From Gammaproteobacteria bacterium (GTDB lineage Bacteria; Pseudomonadota; Gammaproteobacteria; Ga0077536), in contig JAIEQK010000045.1 of assembly GCA_019747795.1 (NCBI GenBank), positions 1-32,531 of the forward strand: a stretch of 32,531 bases of DNA. Reading direction: 5' to 3'. A program made the translations under genes and the position numbers. Below the pieces are notes generated by a model. The model was not told the origin of the DNA. It worked only from the letters and a program-made list of their open reading frames with translations, and did no database searches. Positions 3,720 to 30,425 of this stretch are shown in pieces. Position 1 is the stretch's first letter. Every line of letters begins with the position of its first letter.

Positions 3720-4982
3720 TTGAATGCCAGGCAACTGTTCCTGCTCCTGCTCGGCCTGTTCGCGGCGTCCGCGTCCTTCGGCGCCATGCCCGAGCCGTCG
3801 TCCGCCACCAGCCACGTAAAGACCATCGTGCTCGGCGCCGGTTGCTTCTGGGGCGCCGAGAAGGGCTACGAGGCGCTCGACGGCGTGGAGGACGCCGTCT
3901 CCGGCTACGCCGACGGGCGCGGCGTGGAGCCCGACTACGAAGCCATCAGCAGCCTCGCGCACCGTCGCGACCCGGACAATTACGCGGAGGTGGTCCAGGT
4001 GCGCTACAACATCGAGGTGCTGAGCACGCGGGCACTGCTGCAGCACTTCTTCGAGCAACACGATCCGACGCAGCTGAATCGCCAGGGCAACGACGTCGGC
4101 ACCCAGTATCGTTCGACCATCCTGTACGCCGACGAGGAACAGCGCGCCACCGCGGAGCAAGTGCTGGACGAATACCAGAAGCTGCTCACCGCCGCCGGTC
4201 GCGGCGCCATCGTCACCACCATCAAGCCGCTCGAGACCTTCCATCCGGCCGAGGACTATCACCAGGACTACCTGGCGAAGAACCCGCGCGGCTATTGTCC
4301 CGATCACGCGACCGGCGTGCGCTTCGCCGCGACGACCACACCGCCGCCGGACAACGCCGCGCTGCTGCGCGGCAAGCACGTGCTGGTGCTCGAAGCCGAG
4401 CACTGTCCGTTCTGCGCGCGCTTCCGTCGCGACGTCACCGATGCCTATGCCGGGAGCGTGCCGCTCACCCATCGTCGTGCCGACCAGCTGCAGGGCCTGA
4501 CGCTCAAGACGCCCACCTGGGCGACGCCGACGGTGTACTTCCTCGACAACGGCAAGGAAGTCAGCGGCCACCAGGGCTACATGAGCGCGGCCGACTTCTA
4601 CCGTGCGCTCGGTCGCGCCAAGCTCGGCGACAGTGATGCCTTTCACGTCGCCTTCGACAAGTCGACCGACCGTCGCTTCTGCTGGAGCTACGAGAAGTTG
4701 AAGCACACGCCGGACGGTGTGTTCGTCGACAAGCTCTCCGGCGCGCCCTTGTTCGATACGCGTGACCGTTTCGATTCCGGCTCGGGCTGGCTGTCCTTCA
4801 CCCGCTCGGTGGAGGGCGCCACCGTGGAACAGTCGGACGACAGCCACGGCATGCAGCGCACCGAAGTGTTGTCCAAGAGCACCGGGATTCATCTCGGCCA
4901 CGTGTTCGACGACGGGCCGGACGGCAAGCCGCGCTATTGCATCAACGCGACGGTGCTGGAGTTCAAACCGCGCGCGCACTGA
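3720..4982 (+). CDS. msrAB: exported MsrA-thioredoxin-MsrB fusion (methionine sulfoxide reductase)
   Basis: A 420-aa protein with three catalytic parts. Residues 1-22 are a signal peptide (charged start, LFLLLLGLFAASASFGA, cleavage after SFGA). MsrA spans about 33-200, with GCFWG (catalytic Cys42) and a likely resolving Cys193 in GYCPDH. A thioredoxin-like domain spans about 215-305, with CPFC (Cys229, Cys232) and the cis-Pro loop ATPT (Pro270). MsrB spans about 305-417, with FDSGSGWLSF (351-360), HLGHVFDDGP (391-400) and catalytic Cys407 in RYCIN. The four zinc cysteines of many MsrBs are absent. The start is TTG at 3720: AAGGAAAG lies 7 nt upstream, only this frame gives the signal peptide, and the nearby ATG is out of frame. 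The likely role is periplasmic repair of both methionine-sulfoxide diastereomers. The domain order differs from Neisseria PilB, where thioredoxin comes first. Confidence 0.93.
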   Translation: MNARQLFLLLLGLFAASASFGAMPEPSSATSHVKTIVLGAGCFWGAEKGYEALDGVEDAVSGYADGRGVEPDYEAISSLAHRRDPDNYAEVVQVRYNIEVLSTRALLQHFFEQHDPTQLNRQGNDVGTQYRSTILYADEEQRATAEQVLDEYQKLLTAAGRGAIVTTIKPLETFHPAEDYHQDYLAKNPRGYCPDHATGVRFAATTTPPPDNAALLRGKHVLVLEAEHCPFCARFRRDVTDAYAGSVPLTHRRADQLQGLTLKTPTWATPTVYFLDNGKEVSGHQGYMSAADFYRALGRAKLGDSDAFHVAFDKSTDRRFCWSYEKLKHTPDGVFVDKLSGAPLFDTRDRFDSGSGWLSFTRSVEGATVEQSDDSHGMQRTEVLSKSTGIHLGHVFDDGPDGKPRYCINATVLEFKPRAH

Positions 4983-6530: not shown

Positions 6531-7013
6531 TCAGCCCAAGAGTCGGAAGCGCTCCAGGAACTCGCGTACGCAGCCGTCGCCGCCGCGGCGTTCCAGCACC
6601 ACGTCGCAGATCGCCTTGACCCGCTCCATGGCGTCCGCCGGGCATGCGGCCACGCCCACCGCCTCCAGCACCGGCAGGTCGTTGATGTCATCGCCGATGT
6701 AGGCCACCTGGGCAAGCTCGAGGCCGAGTGTCGCGCACCAGCCGCCGAGCACCTCGAGCTTGGGTGCCTGGCCGACGTACACGTGTTGTACTTCCATCAT
6801 CTTCGCGCGATGCACGATCGCGCCGTCCACCAGGCTGTGGCTGATGAGGCCGATCTCCAGGCCGCGGGCCACGGCCCGCTTCACGCCGAGTCCATCCTTG
6901 GCGTTGAACTTGCGGCACTGTTCGCCGGAGTCCAGCACGTAGATGCCGCCGTCGGTGAGGGTGCCGTCCACGTCGAGCGCGAGCAGACGGATGTCCTGTG
7001 TCGTGTTCGTCAT
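6531..7013 (-). CDS. KdsC-like HAD-superfamily phosphatase
   Basis: This 160-aa protein is a capless C0-type HAD phosphatase. Motif I is DVDGTLTDG (nucleophile Asp14, acid/base Asp16), motif II is the LIS segment with Ser58, motif III is Lys85 in PKLEVL, and motif IV is GDDINDLPVL (Asp108, Asp109). This matches the KDO-8-phosphate phosphatase (KdsC) subgroup in length and motif I context. However, the usual GR-x-S after motif II is replaced here by HSL, so the substrate may differ. No other KDO genes are nearby. The start codon follows the B12-subunit stop by 17 nt with only a weak, distant GAGGA, so translation probably depends on the upstream gene. A role in the mutase pathway or in lipid A synthesis cannot be separated from sequence alone. 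Confidence 0.8.
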   Translation of the reverse strand: MTNTTQDIRLLALDVDGTLTDGGIYVLDSGEQCRKFNAKDGLGVKRAVARGLEIGLISHSLVDGAIVHRAKMMEVQHVYVGQAPKLEVLGGWCATLGLELAQVAYIGDDINDLPVLEAVGVAACPADAMERVKAICDVVLERRGGDGCVREFLERFRLLG

Positions 7014-7030: not shown

Positions 7031-7426
7031 TCAGCGTCCGACCACGCGGTGGATGCAGGCGCAGATGTCGGCGAGCGCGCTGCCGGGGGTGAAGATCTCC
7101 CGCACGCCGAGCGCGCGCAGATGAGCGAAGTCGGCGTTGGGGATCACACCGCCGGCCAGCACCGGGATGTCTTCGCCACCGGCTTCGGCGAGCGCAGTGA
7201 AGAGATCTTCGAACACCACGTTGTGCGCGCCGGACAGAATGCTCACGCACACCAGGTCGACGTCCTCCTGCACGGCGGCGCCGGCGATGCGTCGCGGACT
7301 GACGCGCAGCCCGGTGTAGATCACCTCCATGCCGTCGTCGCGCAGCGCCTGGGCCAGCACCAGTGCGCCGCGATCGTGGCCGTCCAGGCCGGGCTTGGCC
7401 ACCAGCACGCGCAGCGGCCGGCTCAT
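7031..7426 (-). CDS. B12-binding subunit of acyl-CoA mutase
   Basis: A 131-aa cobalamin-binding domain. It has the D-x-H-x2-G signature in LDGHDRG (Asp15, His17 as lower cobalt ligand, Gly20), the SxL element in VSILSGAH, and the GG element in LAGGVIPNAD. This is the small subunit of the two-protein mutases found in archaea and many bacteria, in which the B12 domain is separate from the catalytic barrel. The ATG at 7426 overlaps the TGA of the large-subunit gene as ATGA, so the two are translationally coupled and should be made in equal amounts. The protein should pair with the 562-aa subunit to isomerise a short branched acyl-CoA, probably methylmalonyl-CoA. Confidence 0.94.
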   Translation of the reverse strand: MSRPLRVLVAKPGLDGHDRGALVLAQALRDDGMEVIYTGLRVSPRRIAGAAVQEDVDLVCVSILSGAHNVVFEDLFTALAEAGGEDIPVLAGGVIPNADFAHLRALGVREIFTPGSALADICACIHRVVGR

Positions 7427-9111
7427 GGCAGCACCCCGGCGTGGGCCTGGTGCTTGCCGAACACGCTGGCCATCGCGCCGCACATCTCGCCCAGGGTGGC
7501 GTAGGCCTTGGCGGCTTCGAGCAGCGGATACATGAGATTGCCATTGCCGTGGGCCTCGGCGGTGAGGCGTCCCAGGGCCAGCGCCACGCGTCCGTTATCG
7601 CGTTCGCGGCGCAGGCGTTGCAGGCGCGCGATCTGGGCGTCCACCATCGCCGCGGAGGGACGGTGCAGGCTGATGTCCGGCGCGGTCCCGTCCTGGAATC
7701 GGTTGACGCCGACCACTACCTGTTCGCCGTTCTCGATCTGGCGCTGCTGGGCGTAGGCCGAGCGCGCGATCTCGCCCTGGGCGCGGCCGTCCTCGATGGC
7801 GCGCAGCATGCCGCCCTCGGCCTCGATACGCGCGATCTGCGCGCCCACCTCGCGCTCGATCTCGTCGGTCAGGGCCTCGACATAGTAGGAGCCGCCCAGC
7901 GGATCGATGACATCACCGACGCCGCTCTCGTAGGCCAGCACCTGCTGGGTGCGCAGCGCGAGCAGCGCGGAATGCTCCGAGGGCAGGGCCAGCGCCTCGT
8001 CGTAGGCCGCGGCGTGAAAGGACTGCACGCCGCCGAGCACGGCCGCCAGGTTCTGCAGCGCGACACGCACGATGTTGTTCTCCGGCTGCTGCGCGGTCAG
8101 CGTGCTGCCGGCGGAACCGGCACCGGTGCGCCACATCCAGGACGCCGGATTGCGCGCGCCGAAACGTTCGCGCAGCAGCTTGGCCCACAGCCTGCGCGCT
8201 GCGCGGAACTTCGCCGCCTCGGGAAAGATCTCCGCCGAGGCCGTGAAGTTGAAGGCGATGCGCCGCGCGAAGTCGTCGATGTCCAGGCCGCGGGCGAGGC
8301 AGGCTTCGATGTAGGTGATGGCGTTCGCCAGCGCGAAGGCTACTTCCTGCACGCGCGTCGCGCCGGCCTCGCGCATGTGGTAGCCGCACACGTTCATGAA
8401 GTTCCAGCGCGGCAGGTGGCGGGTGCAGTACTCGATCACGTCGATGCACAGGCGCAGCGCCGGCCGCGGCGGGTAGATGTAGGCGCCGCGCGCGAGGTAT
8501 TCCTTCAGGATGTCGTTCTGCGTGGTGCCGCTGATCCGTTCGAGCGGCAGTCCTTCCTTCTCCGCCGTTGCGACGTACAGCGCGAGCGCCACCGCCGCGG
8601 CGCCGTTCATGGTCAGCGAGGGGCTCGCCTGTTCCAGCGGCAGGCCGTGGAAGATCGTTTCCATGTCCTGAAGCGAATCGACCGCGACGCCGACCACGCC
8701 GACCTCGCCGCGGGCGTCGGGGTCGTCGGAATCGAGCCCGAGCTGGGTCGGCAGGTCGAAGGCCACCAGCAGGCCGCCCTGGCCGCGGTCGAGCAGGTAA
8801 CGAAAGCGTTCATGGGTTTCCTCGGCCGAGCCGAAGCCGGCGTATTGCCGCATCGTCCACAGGCGGCCGGGGTACATGGTCGGCTGGATGCCGCGGGTAT
8901 AGGGATACTCGCCGGGGAAGCCCAGTTGTTCCAGGTAGCCGCACCCATCGTCCTCACGCGGGGTGTGGAGCAGGGGCGCCGCGCCTTCCTGCGCGCGCCA
9001 GCCGGCCGGTGCGATGGTGGCCGGGCGCAGGCCCTTGTCGACCGCAGGCGCCAGCACGTCCTTCTCCCAACGTTGCCGCGCGGCCGCGACGCTGCCCTGG
9101 TCTTCGCTCAT
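7423..9111 (-). CDS. methylmalonyl-CoA mutase-type large (catalytic) subunit
   Basis: This 562-aa protein is the TIM-barrel substrate-binding subunit of adenosylcobalamin acyl-CoA mutases, ending before the B12 domain. Visible landmarks are [24 protein letters not shown] (71-94), [16 protein letters not shown] (116-131), [24 protein letters not shown] (194-217) and the active-site His245 in CGYHMREAG. Substrate-discriminating positions are Tyr90 (RQYAG) and Arg208 (LARGAY), which match Tyr89/Arg207 of methylmalonyl-CoA mutase rather than Phe/Gln (isobutyryl-CoA) or Ile/Gln (2-hydroxyisobutyryl-CoA). Gln76 replaces a Tyr usually seen in RG-x-Y-x-TM. GGGGAGG lies 7 nt before ATG 9111. No meaB-type GTPase chaperone or epimerase is in view. 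Confidence 0.93.
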
Positions 9112-9329: not shown

Positions 9330-11258
9330 TCAGCGCCAGATCCAGTCGCGCGCCAGCCCGTACTGGTTCAACTTGCGGTAGAGCGAACTGCGGCTGATGC
9401 CGAGCAGCGCCGCCGCGGCGCTGACATTGCCCTGGCAGTCGCGCATGGCGCGTTCCACCGCCGCCGCCTCGGCAGCCTTCAGGCCCTGGGCAGGCGCGGG
9501 CCGCGCGGCCTCGCTGGCGGGCGTCGTGCCCCGCAGTTTTGCCGGCAGATCCTCTACGCCGATGCGCGCCTCGGTTGCCAGCATCGCGGCGCTGCGGATC
9601 ACGGCGTGCAGTTCGCGCAGGTTGCCCGGCCAGTCGTAGCCCTCGAGCACCGCCAGCGCCGCGGCGTCGAGATCGAGGTCGCGGCCGCTCTCGGCGCAGA
9701 AGTGGCGTGCCAGCAGCGCGATGTCGTCGCGCCGCGCGCGCAGCGGCGGCAGAACCAGCACCGCGCCGCTCAGGCGGTAGTAGAGATCGCGCCGCAGTAC
9801 GCCTTCGTTCATGGCCTGCTCGGGGTCGCGGTTGGTGGCCGACATGATGCGCACGTTGATCGGGCGGGCGCGGTCGGCGCCTATCGGCACCACTTCACCG
9901 TCCTGGATCACGCGCAGCAGCGCCACCTGCAGCGCCGCGCTGGTCTCGGTCACCTCGTCGAGGAAAATCGTGCCGCCATCGGCCTGTTCGAACTTGCCCT
10001 GCTGTCCATGACGGTTGGCGCCGGTGAAGGCGCCCTTTTCATAACCGAAGAGTTCCGAGGCGATGAGTTCCTGCGGAATGGCGCCGCAGTTGACCGCGAC
10101 GAACGGTCCGTCGGCGCGCTCGCTGGCGGCGTGGATGGCATGGGCAAGCAGTTCCTTGCCGGTGCCGGTCTCGCCGTGCAGCAAGAGCGGCAGCGGCGTG
10201 GGCGCGAGGCGTGCCGCCATGTCCAGGGTGTGCTTGAACACGGCGTTCTCACCGCGCAGGTGCACAAAGCGATAGCGCGTTCGCCAGGGGTTGGCGGCGC
10301 GCGCCGCGCGGCCGGCGGCCGGTACGGTGAACAGGGCACCGCGCACGCCGTCGGTCTCGATGGCGGTGTTCACCACGCGCTCGCTGGTGCGCGGTCGCAA
10401 TTGGAAACCGTCGTCGTCGGCCGGCTGAGCGCCGAAGTCTTCCGCGAGGCGTGGCAGGTCCGCCAGGGCGACGCCGATGTGGGCCGCGTCCAGGCCATAA
10501 CGCCGGGCCGCCGCGTCGTTGAACACGATCAGGCAGCCACGTCGATCCACGGCGAGGCAGGCGTCGTGGGCATGCTTGGCGGCCTGGCGCTGGAAACGCT
10601 CCAGCACGCGGGCGCGCAGCCGCCAGTCGCGTTCGGCGATGGCACGTTCGATGGCCTCGCCGGCGTGCAGCGCGAGATCGAGCACCGCCGGATGCAGCGC
10701 TTCGCGCAGACCTGAGATGTTGATCGCGCCGAGCACCGTCCGGGTCAGGGGATCGTGCAGCGGCACGGCCTGCGCGGCCCAGTCGTGCCAGCTCAGGCAG
10801 TAGTTCTCGCACCAGCCGGCGCGCACCGGCACCCCGTCGTGCAGGCAGGCGCCGAGCGCGGTGCAGCCCACCGCGGCTTCGCTCCAGTCGGCGCCGGGCA
10901 CGATGTTGAGTTCGCGTGCCCGATCGAGAGCGACCGAGCCCTGGTGTACGCGCACCGCGCGCCCGCTGCGGTCGGCCACCATGACCACCTGGTGGGGCTC
11001 CACGAGCGCGGCGGCGAGCAGTTGGAAGGCGGGATCGAGCACCGCGTGCCAGGGCACGGAACTCCGCGGCGGCTCGCTCTCGGAGGTCGCGAGCGGCGCG
11101 CGACTCAAGCGCGGATCCACGCCGCAGGCGCGTGAGCGCAGCCAGGAAGCGCGTATCGCCGCGGGCAGTTCGTCGAGCGCGGCATCGTGGCCGCTGACGA
11201 ACGCCTCCCACAGCCGTCGGGTGCCCCGTTCGTCGCTGTTCAGCCGGTCGTTGGCCAT
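9330..11258 (-). CDS. sigma54-dependent transcriptional activator, AcoR-like
   Basis: The 642-aa protein has a GAF-like sensor at about 75-215, a PAS-like segment at about 220-320, an AAA+ sigma54-interaction domain at about 335-575 and a Fis-type helix-turn-helix at about 600-635. The AAA+ domain has Walker A GETGTGKE (362-369), the sigma54-contacting loop GAFTGA (409-414) and Walker B GGTIFLDE (428-435). The HTH is NVSAAAALLGISRSSLYRKL (611-630). There is no receiver domain, so it should respond directly to a small molecule, like AcoR. ATG 11258 has GGGAGG 5 nt upstream. It is divergent from the dikinase operon, which has an exact -24/-12 promoter, and lies directly upstream of the mutase operon on the same strand. 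It is the obvious candidate activator of one or both. Confidence 0.95.
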   Translation of the reverse strand: MANDRLNSDERGTRRLWEAFVSGHDAALDELPAAIRASWLRSRACGVDPRLSRAPLATSESEPPRSSVPWHAVLDPAFQLLAAALVEPHQVVMVADRSGRAVRVHQGSVALDRARELNIVPGADWSEAAVGCTALGACLHDGVPVRAGWCENYCLSWHDWAAQAVPLHDPLTRTVLGAINISGLREALHPAVLDLALHAGEAIERAIAERDWRLRARVLERFQRQAAKHAHDACLAVDRRGCLIVFNDAAARRYGLDAAHIGVALADLPRLAEDFGAQPADDDGFQLRPRTSERVVNTAIETDGVRGALFTVPAAGRAARAANPWRTRYRFVHLRGENAVFKHTLDMAARLAPTPLPLLLHGETGTGKELLAHAIHAASERADGPFVAVNCGAIPQELIASELFGYEKGAFTGANRHGQQGKFEQADGGTIFLDEVTETSAALQVALLRVIQDGEVVPIGADRARPINVRIMSATNRDPEQAMNEGVLRRDLYYRLSGAVLVLPPLRARRDDIALLARHFCAESGRDLDLDAAALAVLEGYDWPGNLRELHAVIRSAAMLATEARIGVEDLPAKLRGTTPASEAARPAPAQGLKAAEAAAVERAMRDCQGNVSAAAALLGISRSSLYRKLNQYGLARDWIWR

Positions 11259-11355: not shown

Positions 11356-11371
11356 TGGCACGCGCGTTGCA
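11356..11371 (+). promoter_or_regulatory. sigma54 (-24/-12) promoter, exact consensus
   Basis: TGGCACG (11356-11362), CGCG spacer (11363-11366) and TTGCA (11367-11371) reproduce the full consensus TGGCACG-N4-TTGCA, with GG and GC 10 nt apart. Transcription should start near 11383 and lead into the dikinase operon beginning at 11434. The 5' leader has an imperfect hairpin (GGGGACACG at 11383-11391 with CGTGCCCC at 11402-11409). The divergently encoded GAFTGA-type activator supplies the partner that sigma54 requires. Confidence 0.88.
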
Positions 11372-11433: not shown

Positions 11434-14232
11434 ATGCCTGACGCCAGTCTCGTCGTCGGCTTCGATGACGCGCTTGCCTCGCGACACGACCTGGTCGGCG
11501 GCAAGGCCGCCAATCTCGGACGCCTTAGCCAGGCCGGGTTCCCCGTGCCGCGCGGTTTCACCGTCGGTGTGGCGGCCCACCAGTTGTTCCACGGCAGCAT
11601 CGCCGAGCAACTCGCGGCCCTGCTTGGCGATCTCGACTACGCCCACGCCGAGCGGCTCGAAACCCAGACCGCGGCGCTACGCGGGCTGATCCTCGGCAGT
11701 CCGGTCCCGCCGGCGCTGGCGGCCGCCATCAGCGAGGCCTACGCCGGCCTGGCCGCCGACGGCGCGCCGCTGGTGGCGGTGCGCTCCTCCGGTACCGCCG
11801 AGGATCTCGCCGAGGCCTCCTTCGCCGGGCTGCACGACACCTTTCTCGACGTGCAGGGCGCCGACGCCGTACTGGCCGCGGTGAAACGCTGCTGGGCCTC
11901 GCTGTGGACGGCGCGTGCGGTTCACTACCGTCACCAGCGCGGTTTCGACCACGCCGACGCCCGTCTCGCGGTGGTGGTGCAGCGCATGGTGGCCGCCGAG
12001 ATGGCGGGCGTGCTGTTCACCGCCAATCCGCTCAACCTGCGCACCGACGAGTTCGTGATCAATGCGAGCTGGGGACTTGGTGAGGCCGTGGTAGCAGGCA
12101 TCGTCACCCCCGACGAGTTCGTGGTGGCGCGCGACAGCCTGGCGATCAAGCGGCATACGCTCGGCAGCAAGGAACTGCAGATCATCAAGCATCCCGACCA
12201 GCCCGGCACGCTGCGCGAAGCCGTGCTGCCGGCCCGCCGCGACAGTTTCTGTCTCGGCGAGGCCCAGGTCGCCGAACTCGCTGCGCTGGGCAAGCGGGTG
12301 ATGGCGCACTACGACGGTCTGCCGCAGGACATCGAGTGGGCCTGGGCCGAGGGCCGCTTCCACCTGCTGCAGGCGCGGCCGGTGACCGGCGCGGAATTCA
12401 CCTGGGACGAGGACATCAACGCCACCATCCCCGCGCATCACGACGAGCACACGGTGTGGACCAGCACCTGGGCGGATGACTTTCTCACCGGTGGCGTGAC
12501 ACCGCTCTACTACTCGGTGCGCGTGGGTGGCGAGTTCCAGCGCACCCACGATCACACCAACCGCGTGTACGGCTTTCCCCAGCTCGAAGGCGAGCTGATC
12601 TTCAAGTACCACCGCGCCACGGCGTACTTCAACTGCGACGTCGAACGCGAGTGGAACATCGTTTCCCTGCCTTCGCGGCTGCGCAACCTCGACTACGTGC
12701 CACACACCTGGGACGAGGCTCTGCGCGCCGCGCCTTTCAATGGGCTGCGCTTTCTGAAGATGATGGTGCGCATGCACTGGCTCGCGCCGCAGACCGGCGT
12801 GCTGCACTGGCTGTCGGACAAGCCGGGCGGGGTCTATCACTACCTGAAACATCGCGTGGCGGAAGCCAACGGTCCCACGCCCGAGGCCCTGCGCGCGCTT
12901 ACCGACGTGGAACTCGAAGCGCAGATCGCCCGCACGCGGCAACTCGCCGACGAGTGGTGCCTGACGCTGTGGGCGGGCTTCAACTTCTGGGCGGTCGGCG
13001 CCATGGGCCTGCTCGCGGTGCTGGTCGAGCGCTGGTACGACGGCGCCAACCGCGCGGTATACCAGGATCTCATCAGCGGCATGCCCAACACCCTGATGAT
13101 GATCGAGAGCCGCGCGCAGTGGCGCCTCGCCCAGCGCGTGCGCAACTCGCCGGTGCTGCGCGCCCTGCTGGCGGAGCACGAGGGCGCGGCGTTCTTCGCC
13201 GCGCTGCCGGCGCACGAGGACGGGCGCGCCTTCCTCGTCGAGTACGACGCCTTCCTGCGCGAACACGGCCATCGCGGTCACCAGGACCGCGACTACTACT
13301 ACAAGCGGCGCGTCGAGGATCCGGGCATCGACTACCGCATGCTGCGCGCCTACCTGCTGAGCGACGACACCACCACGCCCGAGCAGACCGAGCAGCGCCT
13401 GATCGCCGCGCGCGAGAAGGCCACCCGCGAAGTGCTGGACAACATTCGCGCCAAACCCTTCGGTGCGCTCAAGGCGCGGCTCTTCAGCGCGCTGCTCGGC
13501 TACGTGCACAAGTTCCTGGTGCAGCGTGACGACGAGCGCCACTACTACGATCGCATCACCTACCAGACCAAGAAGGTCTACGCCGAACTCGGCCGCCGCA
13601 TGCATGTGCGCGGCCTGCTGGACGGGCCTGAGGACTTCTTCTTCCTCGCCGAGGGCGAACTGCGCGAGGTGCTGGCAGGGCGCGACTCGCGGCCGCTGAC
13701 CCAGGCCAAGATCGCCGCGCGCCGCCGCGTGTTCGAGCGCCGCAACCGGCGCGAGGAACACACCCCGCCCTACCTGGTGGGCGGCGAGGCGCTGGACATC
13801 AAGGCACGCACCGAGATGCACGTGGTGGACGATGCGACGGGCGAGGGCCTGCGCGGCCTCGGCACCGCGGTTGGGCGTACCACCGGCATCGCGCGGGTGG
13901 TGCCGAACATCGACGACATCGGGCGCGTGCAGAAGGGCGACATCCTCGTCACCAACAGCACCGATCCGGGCTGGGCGCCGGTGTTCGCCATCATCGGCGG
14001 GCTGGTGCTCGAGACCGGCGGCCTGCTGGCCCACGGCGCCTGCCTGTCCCGCGAGTACGGCCTGCCGTCGGTGCTGCTGCGCCACGCCATGCGGCGCATC
14101 GAGGACGGGGCCCTGATCACCATCGACGGCGCGAGCGGCTTGGTCACCATCGAGCCGTCACCGACGGTCGCGGTCGCGGCGTCGGCCACGGACGACGCCG
14201 CGGCGTGGCAGGCCGCCGGCGCCACGCCATGA
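11434..14232 (+). CDS. PEP-synthase-like dikinase 1 (rifampin-phosphotransferase-type architecture)
   Basis: A 932-aa protein with three domains. The N-terminal ATP-grasp domain (about 1-320) has GGKAANLG (22-29), VRSSGTAEDL (116-125), an NPLNLRTDEFVINASWGLGE region and QARPVT (313-318). A large helical middle domain (about 340-800) contains HGHRGHQDRDYYYKRR (611-626). A C-terminal phosphohistidine swivelling domain (about 815-910) has His867 in ETGGLLAHGACLSREYGLP. There is no C-terminal PEP/pyruvate TIM barrel, so this is not PEP synthase. The plan is that of rifampin phosphotransferase, where ATP phosphorylates the His and the phosphate passes to an organic hydroxyl, giving AMP and Pi. The acceptor is set by the middle domain and is unknown. 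ATG 11434 has GGAGGAGA 5 nt upstream. It is the first gene after an exact sigma54 promoter. Confidence 0.9.
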   Translation: MPDASLVVGFDDALASRHDLVGGKAANLGRLSQAGFPVPRGFTVGVAAHQLFHGSIAEQLAALLGDLDYAHAERLETQTAALRGLILGSPVPPALAAAISEAYAGLAADGAPLVAVRSSGTAEDLAEASFAGLHDTFLDVQGADAVLAAVKRCWASLWTARAVHYRHQRGFDHADARLAVVVQRMVAAEMAGVLFTANPLNLRTDEFVINASWGLGEAVVAGIVTPDEFVVARDSLAIKRHTLGSKELQIIKHPDQPGTLREAVLPARRDSFCLGEAQVAELAALGKRVMAHYDGLPQDIEWAWAEGRFHLLQARPVTGAEFTWDEDINATIPAHHDEHTVWTSTWADDFLTGGVTPLYYSVRVGGEFQRTHDHTNRVYGFPQLEGELIFKYHRATAYFNCDVEREWNIVSLPSRLRNLDYVPHTWDEALRAAPFNGLRFLKMMVRMHWLAPQTGVLHWLSDKPGGVYHYLKHRVAEANGPTPEALRALTDVELEAQIARTRQLADEWCLTLWAGFNFWAVGAMGLLAVLVERWYDGANRAVYQDLISGMPNTLMMIESRAQWRLAQRVRNSPVLRALLAEHEGAAFFAALPAHEDGRAFLVEYDAFLREHGHRGHQDRDYYYKRRVEDPGIDYRMLRAYLLSDDTTTPEQTEQRLIAAREKATREVLDNIRAKPFGALKARLFSALLGYVHKFLVQRDDERHYYDRITYQTKKVYAELGRRMHVRGLLDGPEDFFFLAEGELREVLAGRDSRPLTQAKIAARRRVFERRNRREEHTPPYLVGGEALDIKARTEMHVVDDATGEGLRGLGTAVGRTTGIARVVPNIDDIGRVQKGDILVTNSTDPGWAPVFAIIGGLVLETGGLLAHGACLSREYGLPSVLLRHAMRRIEDGALITIDGASGLVTIEPSPTVAVAASATDDAAAWQAAGATP

Positions 14233-14260
14233 CAACCACCGGCCGGAAGGGGAGAGCAGC

Positions 14261-16969
14261 GTGATCATTCGATTCGACGACACACGGGCGCAGGACATCC
14301 TCGCCGTGGGCGGCAAGGCCCGCAGCCTGGCCGCGCTGACCAGCGCCGGCTTCCAGGTGCCGCCGGGCTTCATCGTGTCCACCGACGCGCAGAGCGCGTT
14401 CTTCGCCGCCCATGGGCTGGACGCCAAGATTGCCGGCCTGCTGGCCGGCCTCGACTACGACGATGTCGCGCGCCTCGAGACCGTCACCGCCGAGATCCGC
14501 GCGCTGATCGAAGCCAAGCCGCTGCCCGCCGAGCTCGCCGCCGCGATCACCGCCAGCTACGCGCAATGGGACGCAGACTGTCACGTCGCGGTGCGTTCCT
14601 CCGGCACCGCCGAGGATCTCGCCGAGGCGTCCTTTGCCGGCCTGCACGACACCTATCTCGACGTGCGCGGCAGCGACGCCGTCCTGCTCGCGGTGCGCCG
14701 CTGCTGGGCCTCGATGTGGACCGCGCGTGCCACTGCCTACCGTCAGCGCGGCGGCTTCAATCACGCCTCCGCGCGCATCGCGGTGGTGGTGCAGCGGATG
14801 ATCGCCGCGGAGGTGGCGGGGGTGATGTTCACCGCCAACCCGCTCAACCTGCGCACCGACGAGATCGTGCTGAACGCGAACTGGGGCCTGGGGGAGGGCG
14901 TGGTATCGGGCATCCTCACGCCCGACACCTTTGTGGTCGCCATCGACGACCTCGCCATCCGCCGCCAGACCCTGGGCGACAAGGCCGTGCAGGTGGTGCG
15001 CGCGGCGAGCGGCGTCGGCACCGAGACCCGTGACACGCCGCACGCGCTGCGCGACATTCCCTGTCTTGCGCCAGACAAGGTTCGCGCGCTGGCGGCGCTG
15101 GGCCGCGAGGTGATGGAGCACTGCGAAGGCTTGCCCCAGGACATCGAGTGGGCCTTCGCGGGCGGTGAGCTCTACGTGCTGCAGGCCCGCCCCATCACCG
15201 GCGTGGAGTTCACCTGGGACGAGGACGTCGACGCCTGGCATGGCGCGCCCGAACAGCCCGACACGGTGTGGACCCACACCTGGGCGGAGCAGTTTCTGAC
15301 AGGCGGCGTGACGCCGCTGTTCTCTTCGCTGTGGGCCTGGGCCTGCGAGGAGAACTGGACGTATTTCTCCAAGCTTTACGGCTTCGAGGAACTGACCAAC
15401 GTGCGGTGGTTCAAGTACCGGCGCGCCACCTGGTACTTCAACTGCGACGCCGAGAAGATCTGGCAGAAAGGCCAGTGGCCGGCCGCGCTGCGTGACCTGA
15501 CCAACATCCCGCCCGCGTGGCAGGAGGAATTCGCGCGGGACGAGACCAGCCTGCTGGAGGTCGGACGCCTGTTCCTGCGCCTGCACATCGCCGAACCCAA
15601 GCACGGCCTGTTCGGCTGGTTCCGCAACACCTATTCATGGATCGACGGCAAGATCCCGCTGGCCAAGGGCCCGACCGTGGCCGAGTTGCAGAAGCTCTCC
15701 GACCGCGCGCTGCGTAAGCAGTGCGAGCACAGCGTGAAGATCATCTCTGACTTCTTCGAGACCCTGTGGCCGGGCTTCTCGTGGATTGCGCCCGCCTGCT
15801 TCGGCATGCTGAACAGCCTGCTCGGCAAGTGGTACGACGGCGACGCCGCGAGCGTGTTCCAGGATCTGATCGCCGGTATCCCCGATACCGCGCTGGTGCA
15901 CGAGACCGAGGACCTGTGGCGCCTGGTGGACGCGGTCAAGGCTTCGCCCAAGGTGCAAGCCTGCCTGAACGCCCATGAGGACGCCTCCTTCTTCCGCGCG
16001 CTCGAAGGCTTCGAGGAAGGTCGCGCCTTTCTCGTGCAGTACGCGCGCTACGTCGAGGCCCACGGTCATCGCGGCCATCCCGATCGCGACATCTACTACA
16101 AGCGCCGCGCCGAGGACTCCACCGTGGATTTCCTCGCCCTGCGCAGCCTGCAGCACGCCGACGACTCGAGTCGCCCGGAGCAGGTGGAGGCGCGGCTGGT
16201 GGCGCGGCGTACCGCCGCCACCGAGGCGGTCGTGCAGTGCCTGCTGAAGCAGCCTTTCGGCGGCCTCAAGACCGAGGTGTTCAAGGCCGTGCTGGGCTAC
16301 ACGCTGCGCTTCATGAAGTTCCGCGACGATGAACGCTACTTCCTCGACCGCATGACCCTGCAGATGAAGCGCTCCTTCGCCGAACTCGGCCGTCGCCTGC
16401 ATCAACGCGGCATCCTGGACGGCCCCGAGGACTTCTTTTTCCTGGCCCGCCACGAGCTCTACGAGGTGGCGGACCGCCGCACGGCCGGCAAGCTGGTGCG
16501 TGCCAAGATCGCCGGCCGGCGCGCGGTGTTCGAGCGCCGCAACGCGCGTCTGGAACACACCGCCACCTATATCCAGGGCGACACCGTGCTGCCGCTCGAA
16601 CATCGTAATGGCATCGCGCCGCCCGACGACGGCGCCCTGCGCGGCCTCGGCACCAGCCGCGGCGAAGTGACCGGCCGCGCGCGGGTGGTGCGCTCGATGC
16701 ACGAGATCGGCCGCGTGCAGAAGGACGACATCCTGGTGTGCAACAGCACCGATCCCGGCTGGATGCCGGTGTTCCCGATGATCAAGGGCCTGGTGCTGGA
16801 GACCGGCGGCATGCTCGCCCACGGCGCCTGCCTGTCGCGCGAGTACGGTCTGCCGGCGGTGCAGTTGCGCAACGCCATCGCACTCATCGAAGACGGTGCG
16901 GAGATCCGCATCAACGGCGACAGCGGCGCCATTCGCGTGATCAAGGAGGCCGCGGCAGCGGTGGCATGA
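14261..16969 (+). CDS. PEP-synthase-like dikinase 2, paralogue of the preceding gene
   Basis: This 902-aa protein has the same order of domains as its neighbour: ATP-grasp (GGKARSLA near 21, VRSSGTAEDL at 111-120, QARPIT at 308-313), helical middle domain with HGHRGHPDRDIYYKRR (601-616), and phosphohistidine domain with His854 in ETGGMLAHGACLSREYGLP. The ends of the two proteins are visibly near-identical in many blocks while the middles diverge, as expected for a tandem duplication with changed acceptor specificity, or for two subunits of one complex. All catalytic motifs are intact in both. Translation starts at GTG 14261 with AGGGGAG 6 nt upstream, 28 nt after the first gene's stop. Its own stop overlaps the following CoA transferase start. 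Confidence 0.9.
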   Translation: MIIRFDDTRAQDILAVGGKARSLAALTSAGFQVPPGFIVSTDAQSAFFAAHGLDAKIAGLLAGLDYDDVARLETVTAEIRALIEAKPLPAELAAAITASYAQWDADCHVAVRSSGTAEDLAEASFAGLHDTYLDVRGSDAVLLAVRRCWASMWTARATAYRQRGGFNHASARIAVVVQRMIAAEVAGVMFTANPLNLRTDEIVLNANWGLGEGVVSGILTPDTFVVAIDDLAIRRQTLGDKAVQVVRAASGVGTETRDTPHALRDIPCLAPDKVRALAALGREVMEHCEGLPQDIEWAFAGGELYVLQARPITGVEFTWDEDVDAWHGAPEQPDTVWTHTWAEQFLTGGVTPLFSSLWAWACEENWTYFSKLYGFEELTNVRWFKYRRATWYFNCDAEKIWQKGQWPAALRDLTNIPPAWQEEFARDETSLLEVGRLFLRLHIAEPKHGLFGWFRNTYSWIDGKIPLAKGPTVAELQKLSDRALRKQCEHSVKIISDFFETLWPGFSWIAPACFGMLNSLLGKWYDGDAASVFQDLIAGIPDTALVHETEDLWRLVDAVKASPKVQACLNAHEDASFFRALEGFEEGRAFLVQYARYVEAHGHRGHPDRDIYYKRRAEDSTVDFLALRSLQHADDSSRPEQVEARLVARRTAATEAVVQCLLKQPFGGLKTEVFKAVLGYTLRFMKFRDDERYFLDRMTLQMKRSFAELGRRLHQRGILDGPEDFFFLARHELYEVADRRTAGKLVRAKIAGRRAVFERRNARLEHTATYIQGDTVLPLEHRNGIAPPDDGALRGLGTSRGEVTGRARVVRSMHEIGRVQKDDILVCNSTDPGWMPVFPMIKGLVLETGGMLAHGACLSREYGLPAVQLRNAIALIEDGAEIRINGDSGAIRVIKEAAAAVA

Positions 16970-18135
16970 TGAGAGCACACGAATCCCTGCCGTTTCCCCT
17001 GGCCGGCATGAGGGTGCTGGACCTGACGCGCGCCCTGTCCGGCCCGTTCGCCACCCGCATCCTGTCGGATCTCGGCGCCGACGTGATCAAGGTCGAGCCG
17101 CCGGACGGCGACATGACCCGTGCCTATGGCAGCCGCATCGGCGGGCTGGCCAGCCACTTCACCCAGCACAACGCCGGCAAGCGCGACATCTGCATCGACA
17201 TGAAGGCCGCGGGCGCGGTCGAGCTGGTGCTGGCCCTGGCCGAGGTGGCCGACATCGTGGTGGAGAATTTCCGGCCGGGCGTGATGGCCCGCTTCGGTCT
17301 CGACTGGGCCACCCTGCACGCGCGCAATCCGCGCATGTGCATGTTGTCCATCTCGGGCTTCGGCCAGGAGGGACCGGAACGCGAGCGCGCCGCCTACGCG
17401 CCGGTGCTGCACGCCGAGTGCGGCCTCATCGATCGTTTCGCGGAGCTCGGCAAGCATCACGCGGTGGACTTTCCGGCCTCGAGCGCCGACACCACCGCGG
17501 CGGTGCACGGCGTGATCGGCCTGCTCGCGGCGCTGCTGATGGCGGCGCGCACGGGGCAGGGACAGCACATCGATCTCGCCATGATCAACACGCAGTTCTA
17601 TCACGACGACTTCCTGTCCATGGTGTTGTCCGGGGACACGCCGCCGGCCGGCAGCGGTGAGGTGTGGACCGTGGCCGGCGGCCGCATGGTGGTGGCGACG
17701 ACCTTTTCCTACCTGTGGAAGAAGGTGTCGCGTCACGGCGGTCTTGCCGATCCCGGCGACGAGGACGGGCGCCGTGCGGCGCTGGCCGCGTACTTCGCGA
17801 GCTTTCCGAGCTGGGAGGCGGTGACCGCCATGCTCGATTCGCTCAACCTCGCCTGGGGGCGGGTGCGGCCGTGGCGCGAGGCGGTACACACCAATCCGAG
17901 CGTCGGACCGCGGGAAGTCATCACGCAGATCGACGATCGCGTCGGCGGCACGCGACCCACCACCCAGGCGCCCTACCACTTCAGTGCCGCGCGCGCCGGT
18001 GTGCGTGGCCCAGCGCCCTATCGCGGCGAGCACAACGCCGAGATCCTGCGCGACTGGCTGGGCTACGACGCCGATCGCATCGCGACCCTGCACGTGACCG
18101 GCGTGCTGTCGGCGCAGGAGGACGCGCAGCCATGA
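16966..18135 (+). CDS. CaiB/BaiF (class III) CoA transferase, operon member
   Basis: A 389-aa class III CoA transferase with GMRVLDLTRALSGPFATRIL (14-33), DLGADVIKVEPPDGD (35-49), VVENFRPGVMARFGL (98-112), SISGFGQEGP (128-137) and TGQGQHIDLAM. Asp175 in SSADTTAAVHG sits where the catalytic Asp of formyl-CoA transferase is found, with matching downstream spacing to the LLAALL helix. The ATG at 16966 overlaps the dikinase-2 stop as ATGA, so translation is coupled; a second ATG follows immediately. It probably transfers CoA to a carboxylate made in this pathway, or racemises its CoA ester. It is only distantly similar to the CoA transferase at 984-2210 and belongs to a different branch by eye. 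Confidence 0.93.
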   Translation: MMRAHESLPFPLAGMRVLDLTRALSGPFATRILSDLGADVIKVEPPDGDMTRAYGSRIGGLASHFTQHNAGKRDICIDMKAAGAVELVLALAEVADIVVENFRPGVMARFGLDWATLHARNPRMCMLSISGFGQEGPERERAAYAPVLHAECGLIDRFAELGKHHAVDFPASSADTTAAVHGVIGLLAALLMAARTGQGQHIDLAMINTQFYHDDFLSMVLSGDTPPAGSGEVWTVAGGRMVVATTFSYLWKKVSRHGGLADPGDEDGRRAALAAYFASFPSWEAVTAMLDSLNLAWGRVRPWREAVHTNPSVGPREVITQIDDRVGGTRPTTQAPYHFSAARAGVRGPAPYRGEHNAEILRDWLGYDADRIATLHVTGVLSAQEDAQP

Positions 18136-18188
18136 ACCGTCCCGCACTTTCGACCACGATTGACGCATGCCCGGAGCCACGCACATGA
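18132..18188 (+). CDS. 18-codon mini-ORF bridging two operon genes
   Basis: The short ORF encodes MNRPALSTTIDACPEPRT. Its ATG overlaps the CoA transferase stop (ATGA at 18132-18135) and its TGA overlaps the amidohydrolase ATG (ATGA at 18185-18188). The double ATGA arrangement would let ribosomes carry over from one gene to the next and is the typical geometry of a coupling ORF. The peptide matches nothing I know and may have no function itself. Chance is possible, because only 49 nt separate the two genes. Confidence 0.35.
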   Translation: MNRPALSTTIDACPEPRT

Positions 18189-19906
18189 GTACCTACGACA
18201 TCCTGATCAAGAACGGCACTGTGGTCGACGGCACGGGCGCGCCGGCGCGCCACGGCGACGTGGCCATCAGCGACGGTCACATCGTCGAGGTGGGCCAGGT
18301 GTCCGGCAGCGCCGCGCGCGTGATCGACGCGGCGGGCAGGCTCGTGACTCCCGGCTTCGTCGACATCCACAGCCATCTCGACGCGCAGTTCGCCTGGGAT
18401 CCCATCGGCAGTTCGTCCTGCTGGCACGGCGTGACCTCGGTGGTGGTGGGCAACTGTGGCGTGACCTTCGCGCCGGTGCGACCGGACGATCACGCCAAGC
18501 TCGCCAAGCTCATGGAATCGGTGGAGGACATTCCGGCCAAGGCCATCATGTCCGGCCTGAAATGGAACTGGCAGACCTATGGCGAGTACTACGACGCGCT
18601 GGACGCGAGCCCCAAGGGCATCAATGTGGGCGGCATGGTCGGCCACTGCGCGCTGCGCTACTACGCCATGGGCGATCGCTGTCTCGACAGCAAGAACCAT
18701 CCGACGGACGACGAACTGGCGTTGATGGTCGCCGCGGTCGATGAAGCGCTGGCCGCGGGCGCGCTCGGCGTCTCGTCGTCACGCATCCTCGGCCACCGCA
18801 CGCCGGAAGGTCAGCCGGTGCCTGGCACCTTCGCCGAGAAGCGTGAACTCTTCGCGCTGGCCTATCCACTGGGCGTCCGCGGCCGTGGGCTGTTCGAACT
18901 GGTGCCGCGCTTCGAGACCGACGATCCCGCCAACTGGGCAAAGTCGCAGCGCGAGATCGACTGGATGGCGGAGATGTCGCGCGTCACCGGCAGGCCGGTG
19001 ACCTATTCCTTCTTCCAGTTTCCCCATCTGCCCACCCAGTACCGCGCGGTCCTGGAAATGACCCGGCGCTGCAACGCGGCCGGCGCCAACGTCCGGCCGC
19101 AGACCACCGCGCGCGGCATCGGCGTGCTGTTCGGGCCGCAGCTCCGCAGTCCCTTCGATCGCAACCCGGCGTGGCGCGCGATGCGCAAGCTGACGGTGGC
19201 GGAGAAACTCGCGGTCTACGCCGATCCGGTTCGGCGCGCGGAGCTGGTGCGCGAGGCGAACGAGAACGGCCCCTTCGCCGACGAACTGGAGCGCCTGTAC
19301 GTGCTGGAAGGGCCGGACCCTGACTACACCCCCGACCGGGCGCGCTCGCTGCCCGCGCTCGCCGCCGCGCGCGGCGTGAGCCTCGCCGACGTGTATATCG
19401 ATGTCATGCTCGCGTCCGAGGGCACGGCCTTCATCAACCATCCCCATCTGAACCCGACCTTCGAGGCGGTGGAGGAGATGCTGAGCGATCCCATGGTGGT
19501 GCTGGGGCTCGCCGATTCCGGCGCGCATGTCGGTCAGATCATGGACGCCAGCCAGCCGACCTGGCTCATGAGCTACTGGGTGCGCAAGCGCGGACTGTTC
19601 GGCATCGAGGAGGCGATCCGTCGCCTGACCTCGGACACCGCCAGTCTGTTCGGCATCTCCGATCGCGGCCGCCTCGCGCCCGGCGCGCGCGCCGACGTCA
19701 ACATCATCGATTTCGATCGACTGCGCCTGCACATGCCGGATTTCATCCACGACTTCCCCGCCGGCGCCGGCCGCCTGATACAGAAGGCCGACGGCTACGA
19801 TTACACCCTGGTCAACGGCCAGGTGTTCATGGAGGGAGGCGAGCACACGGGCGCGCTGGTCGGTGAACTGCTGCGCAGTGGTGTCGACCTGCGCGCTCGA
19901 GCGTGA
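18185..19906 (+). CDS. D-aminoacylase (N-acyl-D-amino-acid deacylase) family amidohydrolase
   Basis: The 573-aa protein has the amidohydrolase TIM-barrel fold. An N-terminal beta-sandwich segment (YDILIKNGTVVDGTG) precedes the metal-binding H-x-H in VDIHSHLDAQ (His62, His64), the cysteine ligand candidate Cys91 in VGNCGVTFAP, GHCALR in the second metal region and the catalytic-Asp region GLADSGAH. The C-terminal GRLAPGARADVNIID followed by the closing beta-sandwich is typical. The family hydrolyses N-acyl-D-amino acids and related cyclic or linear amides; many members have unknown substrates. The ATG at 18185 has GGAG 8 nt upstream and fits the family start better than ATG 18167. It is the last gene of the sigma54 operon, so its substrate is likely an amide made or consumed by the dikinase/CoA-transferase steps. 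Confidence 0.9.
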   Translation: MSTYDILIKNGTVVDGTGAPARHGDVAISDGHIVEVGQVSGSAARVIDAAGRLVTPGFVDIHSHLDAQFAWDPIGSSSCWHGVTSVVVGNCGVTFAPVRPDDHAKLAKLMESVEDIPAKAIMSGLKWNWQTYGEYYDALDASPKGINVGGMVGHCALRYYAMGDRCLDSKNHPTDDELALMVAAVDEALAAGALGVSSSRILGHRTPEGQPVPGTFAEKRELFALAYPLGVRGRGLFELVPRFETDDPANWAKSQREIDWMAEMSRVTGRPVTYSFFQFPHLPTQYRAVLEMTRRCNAAGANVRPQTTARGIGVLFGPQLRSPFDRNPAWRAMRKLTVAEKLAVYADPVRRAELVREANENGPFADELERLYVLEGPDPDYTPDRARSLPALAAARGVSLADVYIDVMLASEGTAFINHPHLNPTFEAVEEMLSDPMVVLGLADSGAHVGQIMDASQPTWLMSYWVRKRGLFGIEEAIRRLTSDTASLFGISDRGRLAPGARADVNIIDFDRLRLHMPDFIHDFPAGAGRLIQKADGYDYTLVNGQVFMEGGEHTGALVGELLRSGVDLRARA

Positions 19907-23080: not shown

Positions 23081-24841
23081 TCAGGTGCTCTGACCCACGC
23101 GGTTCAGCCGCAGCAGCTGCCCCGGCGTCCTGCCGGTGCATTCACCATCGCGGAACGTGACCTCGCCGTTGACCAGGGTCCAGCGATAGCCTTCCGCGCG
23201 CTGCACGCGCCGCCACTCGTTGGCCGGGAAGTCGTGGGCGATCTCGTAGTCCACTTCCGGCACGCGCTTCAGCTTGTCGAAGTCGTAGATCACGATATCG
23301 GCAGGCGCGCCCTCGCGCAGGAAGCCGCGGTCGGTGAAGCCCGCGGCCTGGGCCGGGAGATAGCTCAGGCGGTAGTGGGCCTGCTCCAGGGTCAGCTGGC
23401 CCGTGTCGCGCACGAGCCAGGTGAGCATCTCGGTGGTGAACGAGCCGCCGGTGAAGAAGCGCGTGTGCGCGCCGCCGTCCGACACGCCGGGAATGATGTG
23501 CTGGTTGCGCACCAGTTCGCCAACCTTCTTCGGATCGCAGCTCGCGATGTCCGCGGTCTTGTACAGCACCTTCAGATCGCCAGCCAGGCCGATATCGAGC
23601 ATCGCCTCGATGTGATGCTTGCCCTCGCTCTTGGCGATTTCGCCGAGCGCGCGACCGTGGTACTTGGCGAGTTCCGGGTGACCGGGTGTCGCTTCGATGA
23701 CGATGCCTTCGATGGGGCCGCCGACGCCGGTCGTGACCAGCATGTCCTCCTCGGCGATCATCTGCCGGCGGATCGCCGGATCGGCGAGCTTGACCTTCTT
23801 CTCCTCCGTGGTGCCGGTGGTGGCGCGGCTCCAGGCCGGGCTCGAATCGTAGAGGTTCCAGTCCTCCAGGCTGAACACGAAGGGCGCGCGCACCGTCACG
23901 GCCTGGCCGTAGACCCTGAGCCCGCGCTCGAAGCAGGAGTCGATCCACTTCATGGTCTCGGTGTGCACGTTCTCGTGCCCGGGCTCGTCGGAGGCGAGCA
24001 GGGCGTTGAACAGGATCGGCCTGCCGGTGCGCCGCGCGATCTCCTCGATGAAGAGCCGGTCCTCGTCGCTGCGCACGTTGACCGCGTCGGCATTCTTCGC
24101 GTTCAACAGCTGGATGAAGCCTTCACCGCGCTGGCCGACCATGTCGGCGAAGGCCAGCAGGGTCTCGTCCGGCACGACGTCGGTCGGCATCGGCGTGCCG
24201 TCGAAGTCGGCCTGGATGGAGTTCTGACCGAAGCGCTGGAAGCTGAAGCCCATCATGCCGGCATCCATCGCCTCGCTGATGAGCCGGTTCATCTCGCCGA
24301 TCTCGTCCTTGGTCGCCTGGCGGCCGGCTTTCGCGCCTTCGAGGCCCAGCACGTAGACCAGCAGCGGATTCAGCGGCACGTAGCTCAGCAGGTTCACGCC
24401 CTTCGGCAGCTTGTCGAGATGGTCCATCCACTCCGGCAGCGATTCCCATTCCCAGTCGAGGCCCATGCCTTCGACCATGGTGTCGTAGGGGATCTGCTCG
24501 GTGCGCACCATCATCTGCAGCAGGCGCTCGCGGTTCTCCTTGCGCGCCGGCGCGAAGCCGAAGCCGCAGTTGCCGATCGCGACCGAGGTCACGCCGTGCC
24601 AGCCGGAGATGGTGCAGTAGGGATCCCAGTGGATCTGGGCGTCGTAGTGAGTATGCAGATCGACGAAGCCGGGCGCGACGATGAGTCCCTCGGCGTCGAT
24701 CACCTGTTTGGCGTCGCTGGTGGCGATGCGGCCGATCTTCGCGACCTTGCCGTCCTTGATCGCGAGATCGCCCTTGAAGCGTGGCAGACCGGTGCCATCG
24801 ATGATGGTGCCGTTCTTGATCACTGTGTCGTACTTGGACAT
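23081..24841 (-). CDS. second D-aminoacylase-family amidohydrolase
   Basis: The 586-aa protein starts like its paralogue at 18185 (YDTVIKNGTIIDGTG) and has the same landmarks: H-x-H in VDLHTHYDAQ (His63, His65), Cys92 in IGNCGFGFAP, and the late SDGGAHTRFFTGG segment with the catalytic-Asp candidate. It ends with a REGAPADIVIYDFDKL metal-dependent-hydrolase tail. It differs from the operon copy in the middle third, with an insertion around AWSRATTGTTEEKKVKL, so the substrate probably differs. ATG 24841 has GGGGAG 9 nt upstream; the in-frame ATG three codons earlier would touch that site. It is transcribed alone on the minus strand. The family also contains enzymes acting on substrates other than N-acyl-D-amino acids, so the name is a family label only. 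Confidence 0.9.
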   Translation of the reverse strand: MSKYDTVIKNGTIIDGTGLPRFKGDLAIKDGKVAKIGRIATSDAKQVIDAEGLIVAPGFVDLHTHYDAQIHWDPYCTISGWHGVTSVAIGNCGFGFAPARKENRERLLQMMVRTEQIPYDTMVEGMGLDWEWESLPEWMDHLDKLPKGVNLLSYVPLNPLLVYVLGLEGAKAGRQATKDEIGEMNRLISEAMDAGMMGFSFQRFGQNSIQADFDGTPMPTDVVPDETLLAFADMVGQRGEGFIQLLNAKNADAVNVRSDEDRLFIEEIARRTGRPILFNALLASDEPGHENVHTETMKWIDSCFERGLRVYGQAVTVRAPFVFSLEDWNLYDSSPAWSRATTGTTEEKKVKLADPAIRRQMIAEEDMLVTTGVGGPIEGIVIEATPGHPELAKYHGRALGEIAKSEGKHHIEAMLDIGLAGDLKVLYKTADIASCDPKKVGELVRNQHIIPGVSDGGAHTRFFTGGSFTTEMLTWLVRDTGQLTLEQAHYRLSYLPAQAAGFTDRGFLREGAPADIVIYDFDKLKRVPEVDYEIAHDFPANEWRRVQRAEGYRWTLVNGEVTFRDGECTGRTPGQLLRLNRVGQST

Positions 24842-25219
24842 GCGCAACATCTCCCCTCGTGGTCATGCGCGCGTCTGACGCCGGCCGCGGCCGGGATGTC
24901 CGTACGCGCGCGCAGCGGTTGATCGGACAACTCCCCATCCACACGTATAGACCACCGCAACGGCGGGATCACGGTGGAGGGCGCACGAACTTCGTCAGCG
25001 CGCGGTCCGCGCCGCGCACCGGTTAGGTGGCGCCTGCGCCGAAAGGCGTAGGGCCGGGTCGCGGCATCGATTGAGAGGGGGACGAGGAACGCCGCGCGCG
25101 CCGCTTTCCCTGCGGGGCCGGGGTCAGAAGTGCGTCTGCGACCCGCGCGGGCCACCTCACCTTTCGGTGTGCTTCGAGTGCAGTAGCTTCATCGACGTAG
25201 GCGCGCGCCGCCGCGCGAC
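24842..25219. other. 378-nt intergenic stretch
   Basis: I see no supported gene between the ANTAR regulator and the amidohydrolase. The stretch contains small GNRA-type hairpins (CGCC-GAAA-GGCG near 25036-25047 on the plus strand, CACC-GAAA-GGTG near 25157-25169 on the minus strand) and a bulged hairpin at 25120-25144. None is placed convincingly for regulation. It must include the promoter of the amidohydrolase gene. Confidence 0.45.
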
Positions 25220-30308: not shown

Positions 30309-30425
30309 GCGGGGGATCCCTCGTCGCCAGGTCCGGCCGCGCGCGCCGCGCGCCATGGGCGGGTATTATCCGGGCCGCCGCGCCGCCCAGGCAAACGCGT
30401 TCGCGGCCAGCCGATGGAGAGCGCC

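Follow-up and report, generated by a model that had tools for sequence, protein, structure and literature searches.

Tandem RPH-type dikinases of an uncharacterised clade in a putatively catabolic operon of a gammaproteobacterium

Introduction

What do two complete, adjacent dikinases with the domain plan of rifampin phosphotransferase (RPH) phosphorylate in a gammaproteobacterium, and do they act separately or as one enzyme? The pair, here called A and B, lies in a stretch of 32,531 nt (contig JAIEQK010000045.1, assembly GCA_019747795.1) which in its full length is referred to as the window. Homologues of RPH frequently bear a mistaken annotation as PEP synthase, and for most of them the acceptor is unexplored (PMC4844700). 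An RPH-type mechanism has also been proposed in catabolism, for HpeHI, CreHI and PpsAB (PMC12167813, PMC9618137); in the Hpe pathway HpeHI phosphorylates the phenol substrate (PMC9618137, PMC12167813), the carboxylase accepts the phosphorylated compound only, and the phosphate is afterwards taken off by the HAD phosphatase HpeD (PMC9618137).

Materials and Methods

Relatives were sought in 58 genomes, one of which was the window's own, leaving 57 relatives, and the presence of A and B was scored in genomes which are incomplete. The first tree comprised 72 rows. The second was built from the middle and swivel domains and also took in RPH, a PigC-like protein and four split plasmid kinases, the last of these as stand-ins for HpeH, CreH and PpsA. 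One locus, L041 (the paralogue at C189), was left out. Structural models were built with AlphaFold2 from clade alignments. In a motif screen of the clade loci, genes within two genes of a dikinase were counted as near and those four to six positions away as distal.

Results

Two complete dikinase genes

Dikinase A (932 aa, ATG start) is encoded at 11434..14232 and dikinase B (902 aa, GTG start) at 14261..16969, head-to-tail on the forward strand with 28 nt between them in the ORF list; both assignments draw on the ORFs, Pfam, alignments, AlphaFold models and fold matches. The initial annotation had described two adjacent ORFs of these lengths as paralogues, and the coordinates, the lengths and the relationship (52% identity) were all confirmed. 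In each protein Pfam identifies an N-terminal PPDK_N domain (E ~1e-94) and a C-terminal PEP-utilizers domain (E ~1e-16), and it finds no PEP/pyruvate TIM-barrel domain in either, in agreement with the barrel-less plan proposed earlier. The ATP-grasp domain of A spans approximately aa 1-320, the helical acceptor domain aa 321-802 and the swivel (phosphohistidine) domain aa 803-908, and B follows the same plan.

The swivel histidines, His867 of A (14032-14034) and His854 of B (16820-16822), had already been singled out as phosphohistidines and are invariant in alignments of 46 and 38 rows, respectively. The middle-domain motif shared by the two proteins is HGHRGHQDRDYYYKRR in A (aa 611-626; 13264-13311) and HGHRGHPDRDIYYKRR in B (aa 601-616; 16061-16108), and the acceptor domain also contains R698-R702 in A (13525-13539) and R688-R692 in B (16322-16336). 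Throughout the clade described below the acceptor-domain signature is GHRGHxDRDxYYxRR plus RDxxR, whereas the same columns read GMRCxGEIDxxRxRW in three sequences of RPH type, of which one is annotated as RPH, and RPH also has REYPK rather than RDxxR. The motif is indeed unlike that of these RPH-type sequences, in line with the difference from antibiotic kinases suggested when it was first noticed.

Predicted structure and catalytic residues

The models of A and B have mean pLDDT values of 89.3 and 90.0, and RPH is the only solved protein which matches them across all three domains, A being aligned over 816 residues (Z 38.7, rmsd 8.1) and B over 813 (Z 39.1, rmsd 8.8); it also ranks first for A in Foldseek (E 1e-46). 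The high full-length rmsd would fit differing positions of the swivel domain. The ATP-grasp domain is matched in addition by the structures of PEP synthase (2ols) and HpeI (9goj). In alignment with RPH, the ATP-site residues, the swivel His and the equivalent of the acceptor-domain Arg666 are all kept in A and B, and Glu667 and Lys670 of RPH are replaced by Asp and Arg throughout the clade; the second phosphotransfer of RPH-Lm requires Arg666 and Glu667 (PMC4844700).

Family membership and phylogeny

Pfam, the models and the match to RPH-Lm agree in giving A and B the domain order of the RPH-type small-molecule dikinase superfamily (sensu PMC4844700). Within it, identity to RPH-Lm is 24-28% over long structural alignments, as against the >42% of RPH clade A, and block 9 of the rifampin-binding domain, which in RPH contains Arg-Glu and Lys (PMC4844700), has Arg-Asp and Arg in all 46 clade rows with letters there. 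None of the curated cut-offs was reached: A and B score 414 and 438 bits with NF041857 (RPH; cut-off 999), 368 and 361 with TIGR01418 (PEP synthase, the barrel of which is absent too; 739.75), 432 and 401 with NF052632 (RedH; 1350), and 391 and 358 with NF052631 (PigC; 1300). Nor do they resemble the two-component dikinases in having their parts on separate polypeptides, as the ATP-grasp and acceptor/swivel parts are fused in both.

In the first tree A and B fall within a clade of 44 rows which has a support of 100 and is distinct from both RPH and PEP synthase, and in the second they again stand apart from RPH, the four split plasmid kinases and the PigC-like protein; as some outgroup branches of the second tree are long, only the separation was taken from it. 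The initial reading of the pair as divergent dikinases built on the RPH plan is supported, the plan by the full-length fold matches and the divergence by the trees. By the tests made, A and B are RPH-type dikinases of an uncharacterised clade, neither RPH nor PEP synthase. A PEP-synthase-like gene proper is found at another place in the same genome (C198).

A groups with orthologues in the relatives G007 and G019, and B with orthologues in G007, G011 and G025. In both trees A and B are not each other's closest relatives; B is nearer to a third lineage (L039, L050, L055), in which the dikinase lies beside a DeoC/LacD-type aldolase gene, an arrangement also seen at L045. As B is closer to this lineage than to A, the pair does not stem from a recent tandem duplication; A and B are old lineages. 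The clade is also rare: of the 398 Pseudomonadota genomes sampled only one, the window's own, had a member at E 1e-180. Among the sources of its members are Thauera terpenica, a Sterolibacteriaceae MAG, Nevskia, Pseudonocardia and Mycolicibacterium.

Two further clade loci contain two dikinases each, on one strand in a Halieaceae MAG (L084, 9941-17727) and convergent in a Pseudomonadales MAG (L078, 9971-15782). At eight loci of Chloroflexota, RPH-like dikinases are followed by a gene whose conserved family matches glycerol-3-phosphate acyltransferase.

A putatively regulated operon

A and B are followed on the forward strand by genes for a CoA-transferase of family III (16966..18135; CoA_transf_3 in Pfam), the start of which overlaps the stop of B (ATGA), and for an Amidohydro_3 protein of D-aminoacylase type (18185..19906, alternative start 18167; Pfam), which is the last gene of the operon and whose PDB relatives are D-aminoacylases. 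Upstream of A, a sigma-54 (-24/-12) promoter element, TGGCACGCGCGTTGCA (11356..11371, forward strand), matches 12 of 12 consensus positions and is the sole site with at most one mismatch in the window, where 0.35 would be expected. It lies inside the gap of ~175 nt between A and the start of a divergent sigma-54-dependent activator with a Fis-type HTH (9330..11258, reverse strand; Sigma54_activat and HTH_8 in Pfam), the start of which was picked by its start codon and an upstream GGGAGG. This activator is likely to be the regulator of the A-B operon. At the loci of relatives, no sigma-54 site was found with a full consensus match or placed like that of the window, so that sigma-54 control appears to be local.

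The proposal that the pair is catabolic is consistent with this apparently regulated gene context and with the co-occurrence of the CoA-transferase and Amidohydro_3 genes described below, a catabolic rather than a biosynthetic direction being read from gene context. The presence of a CoA-transferase and amidohydrolases suggests that the compound has, or acquires, a carboxylic acid group or else undergoes hydrolytic opening.

Elsewhere in the window there are a second CoA-transferase III gene (984-2210, forward) and a second Amidohydro_3-like gene (23081-24850, reverse), neither of which is orthologous to the operon copy by the clustering used, as well as genes for a histidine kinase of ~1400 aa with many PAS domains (26079-30356, reverse) and an MsrA, thioredoxin-like and MsrB fusion protein (3720-4982, forward).

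A gene set conserved among relatives

A was found in the window's own genome, G007, G011 (in fragments) and G019, and B in the window's own genome, G007, G011 and G025; two of the 57 relatives (G007 and G011) thus have both. The orthologues of the CoA-transferase (73-76%) and of the operon Amidohydro_3 protein (72-73%) were found in exactly these two relatives and in none of the others. A HAD orthologue (60-71%) was confined, among the 58 genomes, to the window's own, G007, G011 and G019, and an Amidohydro_2 orthologue (63-69% to the G007 protein) was present in these four and G032; in the window's own genome it is encoded on contig C294, beside another Amidohydro_3 gene. The neighbours of B in G007 and G011 are the CoA-transferase, two Amidohydro_3 genes, Amidohydro_2 and a SixA-like protein. 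The HAD orthologue is near B in G007, and in G019 the HAD gene is 297 nt from A. A P450 gene lies 113 nt from A in G007. On contig C4 of G011 (L054, L111) the orthologue of A is spread over several reading frames with stops, being either a pseudogene or the product of a sequencing or assembly error.

Phosphatases near the dikinases

The candidate for removing the phosphate in the window is a KdsC-like HAD phosphatase (C0 type; Pfam HAD) encoded in the divergent gene group at 6531..7013 on the reverse strand, 4.4 kb from A; its PDB relatives are KdsC and related sugar-acid phosphatases. In the motif screen, phosphatases of calcineurin or PTP type made up 9 of the 173 near genes and none of the 214 distal genes, the nine amounting to approximately five independent cases as the loci within a lineage are related. 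The HAD pattern matched one gene (L043), which belongs to the distal set, and the HAD gene of the window is itself distal.

Phosphatases of unrelated folds adjoin dikinases across different lineages of the clade. Calcineurin-like phosphoesterases do so at L046, L051, L056, L080, L083 and L086, PTP-like phosphatases at L071, L105 and L107, HD-domain proteins at L105 (by Pfam) and L094 (by homology to the L105 protein), a HAD_2 hydrolase at L089 and a KdsC-like HAD protein at L048. Many clade loci, the aldolase-linked ones included, have no phosphatase within two genes.

Other neighbours recur as well. A conserved protein of 189-191 aa with no Pfam match adjoins the dikinase at L046, L051 and L056. 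DUF7064/DUF7065 proteins make up 8 of 142 immediate neighbours as against 2-3 of 142 distal genes (at L080, L083, L084, L090, L091 and L106) and are possibly a second partner of clade dikinases. On a Rhodococcus plasmid a split kinase lies beside a histidine phosphatase gene, with a P450 gene nearby.

Discussion

The reading we favour, with a probability of roughly 0.6, is that A and B are separate RPH-type dikinases which place a phosphate handle on organic acceptors, that this phosphate is later removed by the HAD phosphatase, and that the whole is switched by sigma-54. In each enzyme the ATP-grasp domain would move the beta-phosphate of ATP onto the swivel His, giving AMP and Pi, after which the swivel domain would swing across to the acceptor domain and the phosphate would pass to an oxygen of the organic acceptor bound there in the helical middle domain. 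The phosphate would serve as a temporary handle or retention tag while the CoA-transferase and amidohydrolases transform the tagged compound, to be taken off by the KdsC-like HAD phosphatase, with the sigma-54 activator switching the operon on. The acceptors may be organic alcohols or phenols; A and B would most likely serve different acceptors, or different positions or intermediates of one pathway. To read the window operon as phosphorylation, transformation and dephosphorylation follows the precedent of the Hpe pathway, here with two complete dikinases. Against this reading weighs the position of the window HAD gene, which sits beside a B12-dependent mutase that the relatives do not co-inherit. 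The many clade loci with no phosphatase nearby, the small number of independent phosphatase cases and the lack of a comparable sigma-54 site in relatives also speak against it.

In their anatomy A and B are like RPH, and among small-molecule dikinases as a superfamily they represent a new variant. With RPH-Lm (PDB 5HV1, 5FBS-5FBU; PMC4844700) they share the order and fold of the three domains, the ATP-site residues, the swivel His and the Arg666 equivalent, but they differ from it in their low identity, motifs, operon context and clade. With HpeHI, CreHI and PpsAB they would share a role in catabolism, and just as the Hpe gene cluster includes a HAD phosphatase, the window has its KdsC-like candidate; however, in those systems the ATP-grasp and acceptor/swivel parts are separate proteins, whereas A and B are two whole, fused enzymes in tandem. 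PEP synthase also has the ATP-grasp and swivel His domains but, unlike A and B, the PEP/pyruvate barrel as well.

A wider version of the preferred reading would make the clade a third, single-chain branch of catabolic dikinases which all use the phosphate as a handle and have recruited phosphatases (HAD, calcineurin-like, PTP-like and HD) several times independently, the two dikinases of the window tagging successive positions or intermediates of one compound. We put this forward tentatively, as a possibility with the odds against it.

The initial annotation had left open whether the pair is heteromeric or of split specificity, and of these the latter has gained ground. Between A and B the middle domains are the least similar (45% identity, compared with 59% for the ATP-grasp and 67% for the swivel domains), and 66 of 203 columns which are fixed within each of the A and B groups differ between the two. 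As the acceptor domains have diverged most, the genes occupy separate loci in relatives, B occurs where A was not detected and each chain has the full catalytic set, split specificity is favoured on these comparisons over a heteromer. That A and B instead form one obligate heteromeric dikinase with a single acceptor is unlikely. The two genes are in tandem in one operon, only 28 nt apart, both are present in the window's own genome, G007 and G011, and the known catabolic relatives do consist of two components, though these arise from a split between domains (PMC12167813). However, an obligate heteromer fits poorly with two catalytically complete chains, with lineages that are not sisters in either tree, and with the relatives, where A and B lie apart in G007 and belong to different contigs of G011, and where, in incomplete genomes, G025 has B with no A detected and G019 has A with no B detected.

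A role in resistance, in which the acceptor of A and B would be an antibiotic or some other toxic compound with a hydroxyl group and the phosphorylated product would not be used further, is suggested by their sole full-length structural match, as RPH is itself a resistance enzyme (PMC4844700). We consider it improbable, as A and B miss the RPH cut-off by half and have the RPH motifs replaced, and resistance alone would leave unexplained both the co-inherited CoA-transferase, amidohydrolases and phosphatase and the phosphatases beside other clade members.

There is little likelihood, too, that A and B are part of a pathway for branched acids or tertiary alcohols via the neighbouring B12-dependent acyl-CoA mutase, whose large and small subunits are encoded at 7031-9111 on the reverse strand. 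These genes adjoin that of the regulator, the large subunit has 2-hydroxyisobutyryl-CoA mutase as its best relative of solved structure, and the conserved HAD gene lies 17 nt downstream of that for the small subunit, on the same strand. However, the mutases of the 57 relatives are only 40-52% identical, so that the enzyme is not co-inherited with the dikinase set, and in genomes that possess the conserved A/B set none is closer than 49%; moreover, where 2-hydroxyisobutyryl-CoA mutase has Ile, Asp and Gln, the enzyme of the window shows at aligned positions the Tyr and Arg of methylmalonyl-CoA mutase. A pathway via this mutase was demoted on account of the poor co-inheritance and the methylmalonyl-CoA mutase-like residues. 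Among the papers searched, none connected 2-hydroxyisobutyryl-CoA mutase or Thauera terpenica to PEP synthase. The 25-hydroxysteroid kinase was set aside, since it reportedly transfers the gamma-phosphate and makes ADP.

Least probable of all is that A and B are ligases of the RedH/PigC type, the prodiginine enzymes with an RPH-like domain order, in which phosphate would activate a carbonyl oxygen for condensation with another molecule and leave as Pi from the same active site: of the NCBIfam families RedH fits A best (residues 6-906, E 4e-129), but both proteins reach only one third of the curated score, the surroundings contain no pigment-type biosynthetic genes, and the PigC-like protein is distant in the trees and has no clade signature.

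The organisms in which the clade occurs point to terpenoid, steroid-like or aromatic alcohols as compounds that could be its substrates. With a clade signature, a conserved gene set, a candidate phosphatase and a sigma-54 operon in hand, the search for the acceptor becomes a defined problem. If the phosphate-handle logic holds true, catabolism initiated by phosphorylation would be broader than the phenolic pathways known so far.
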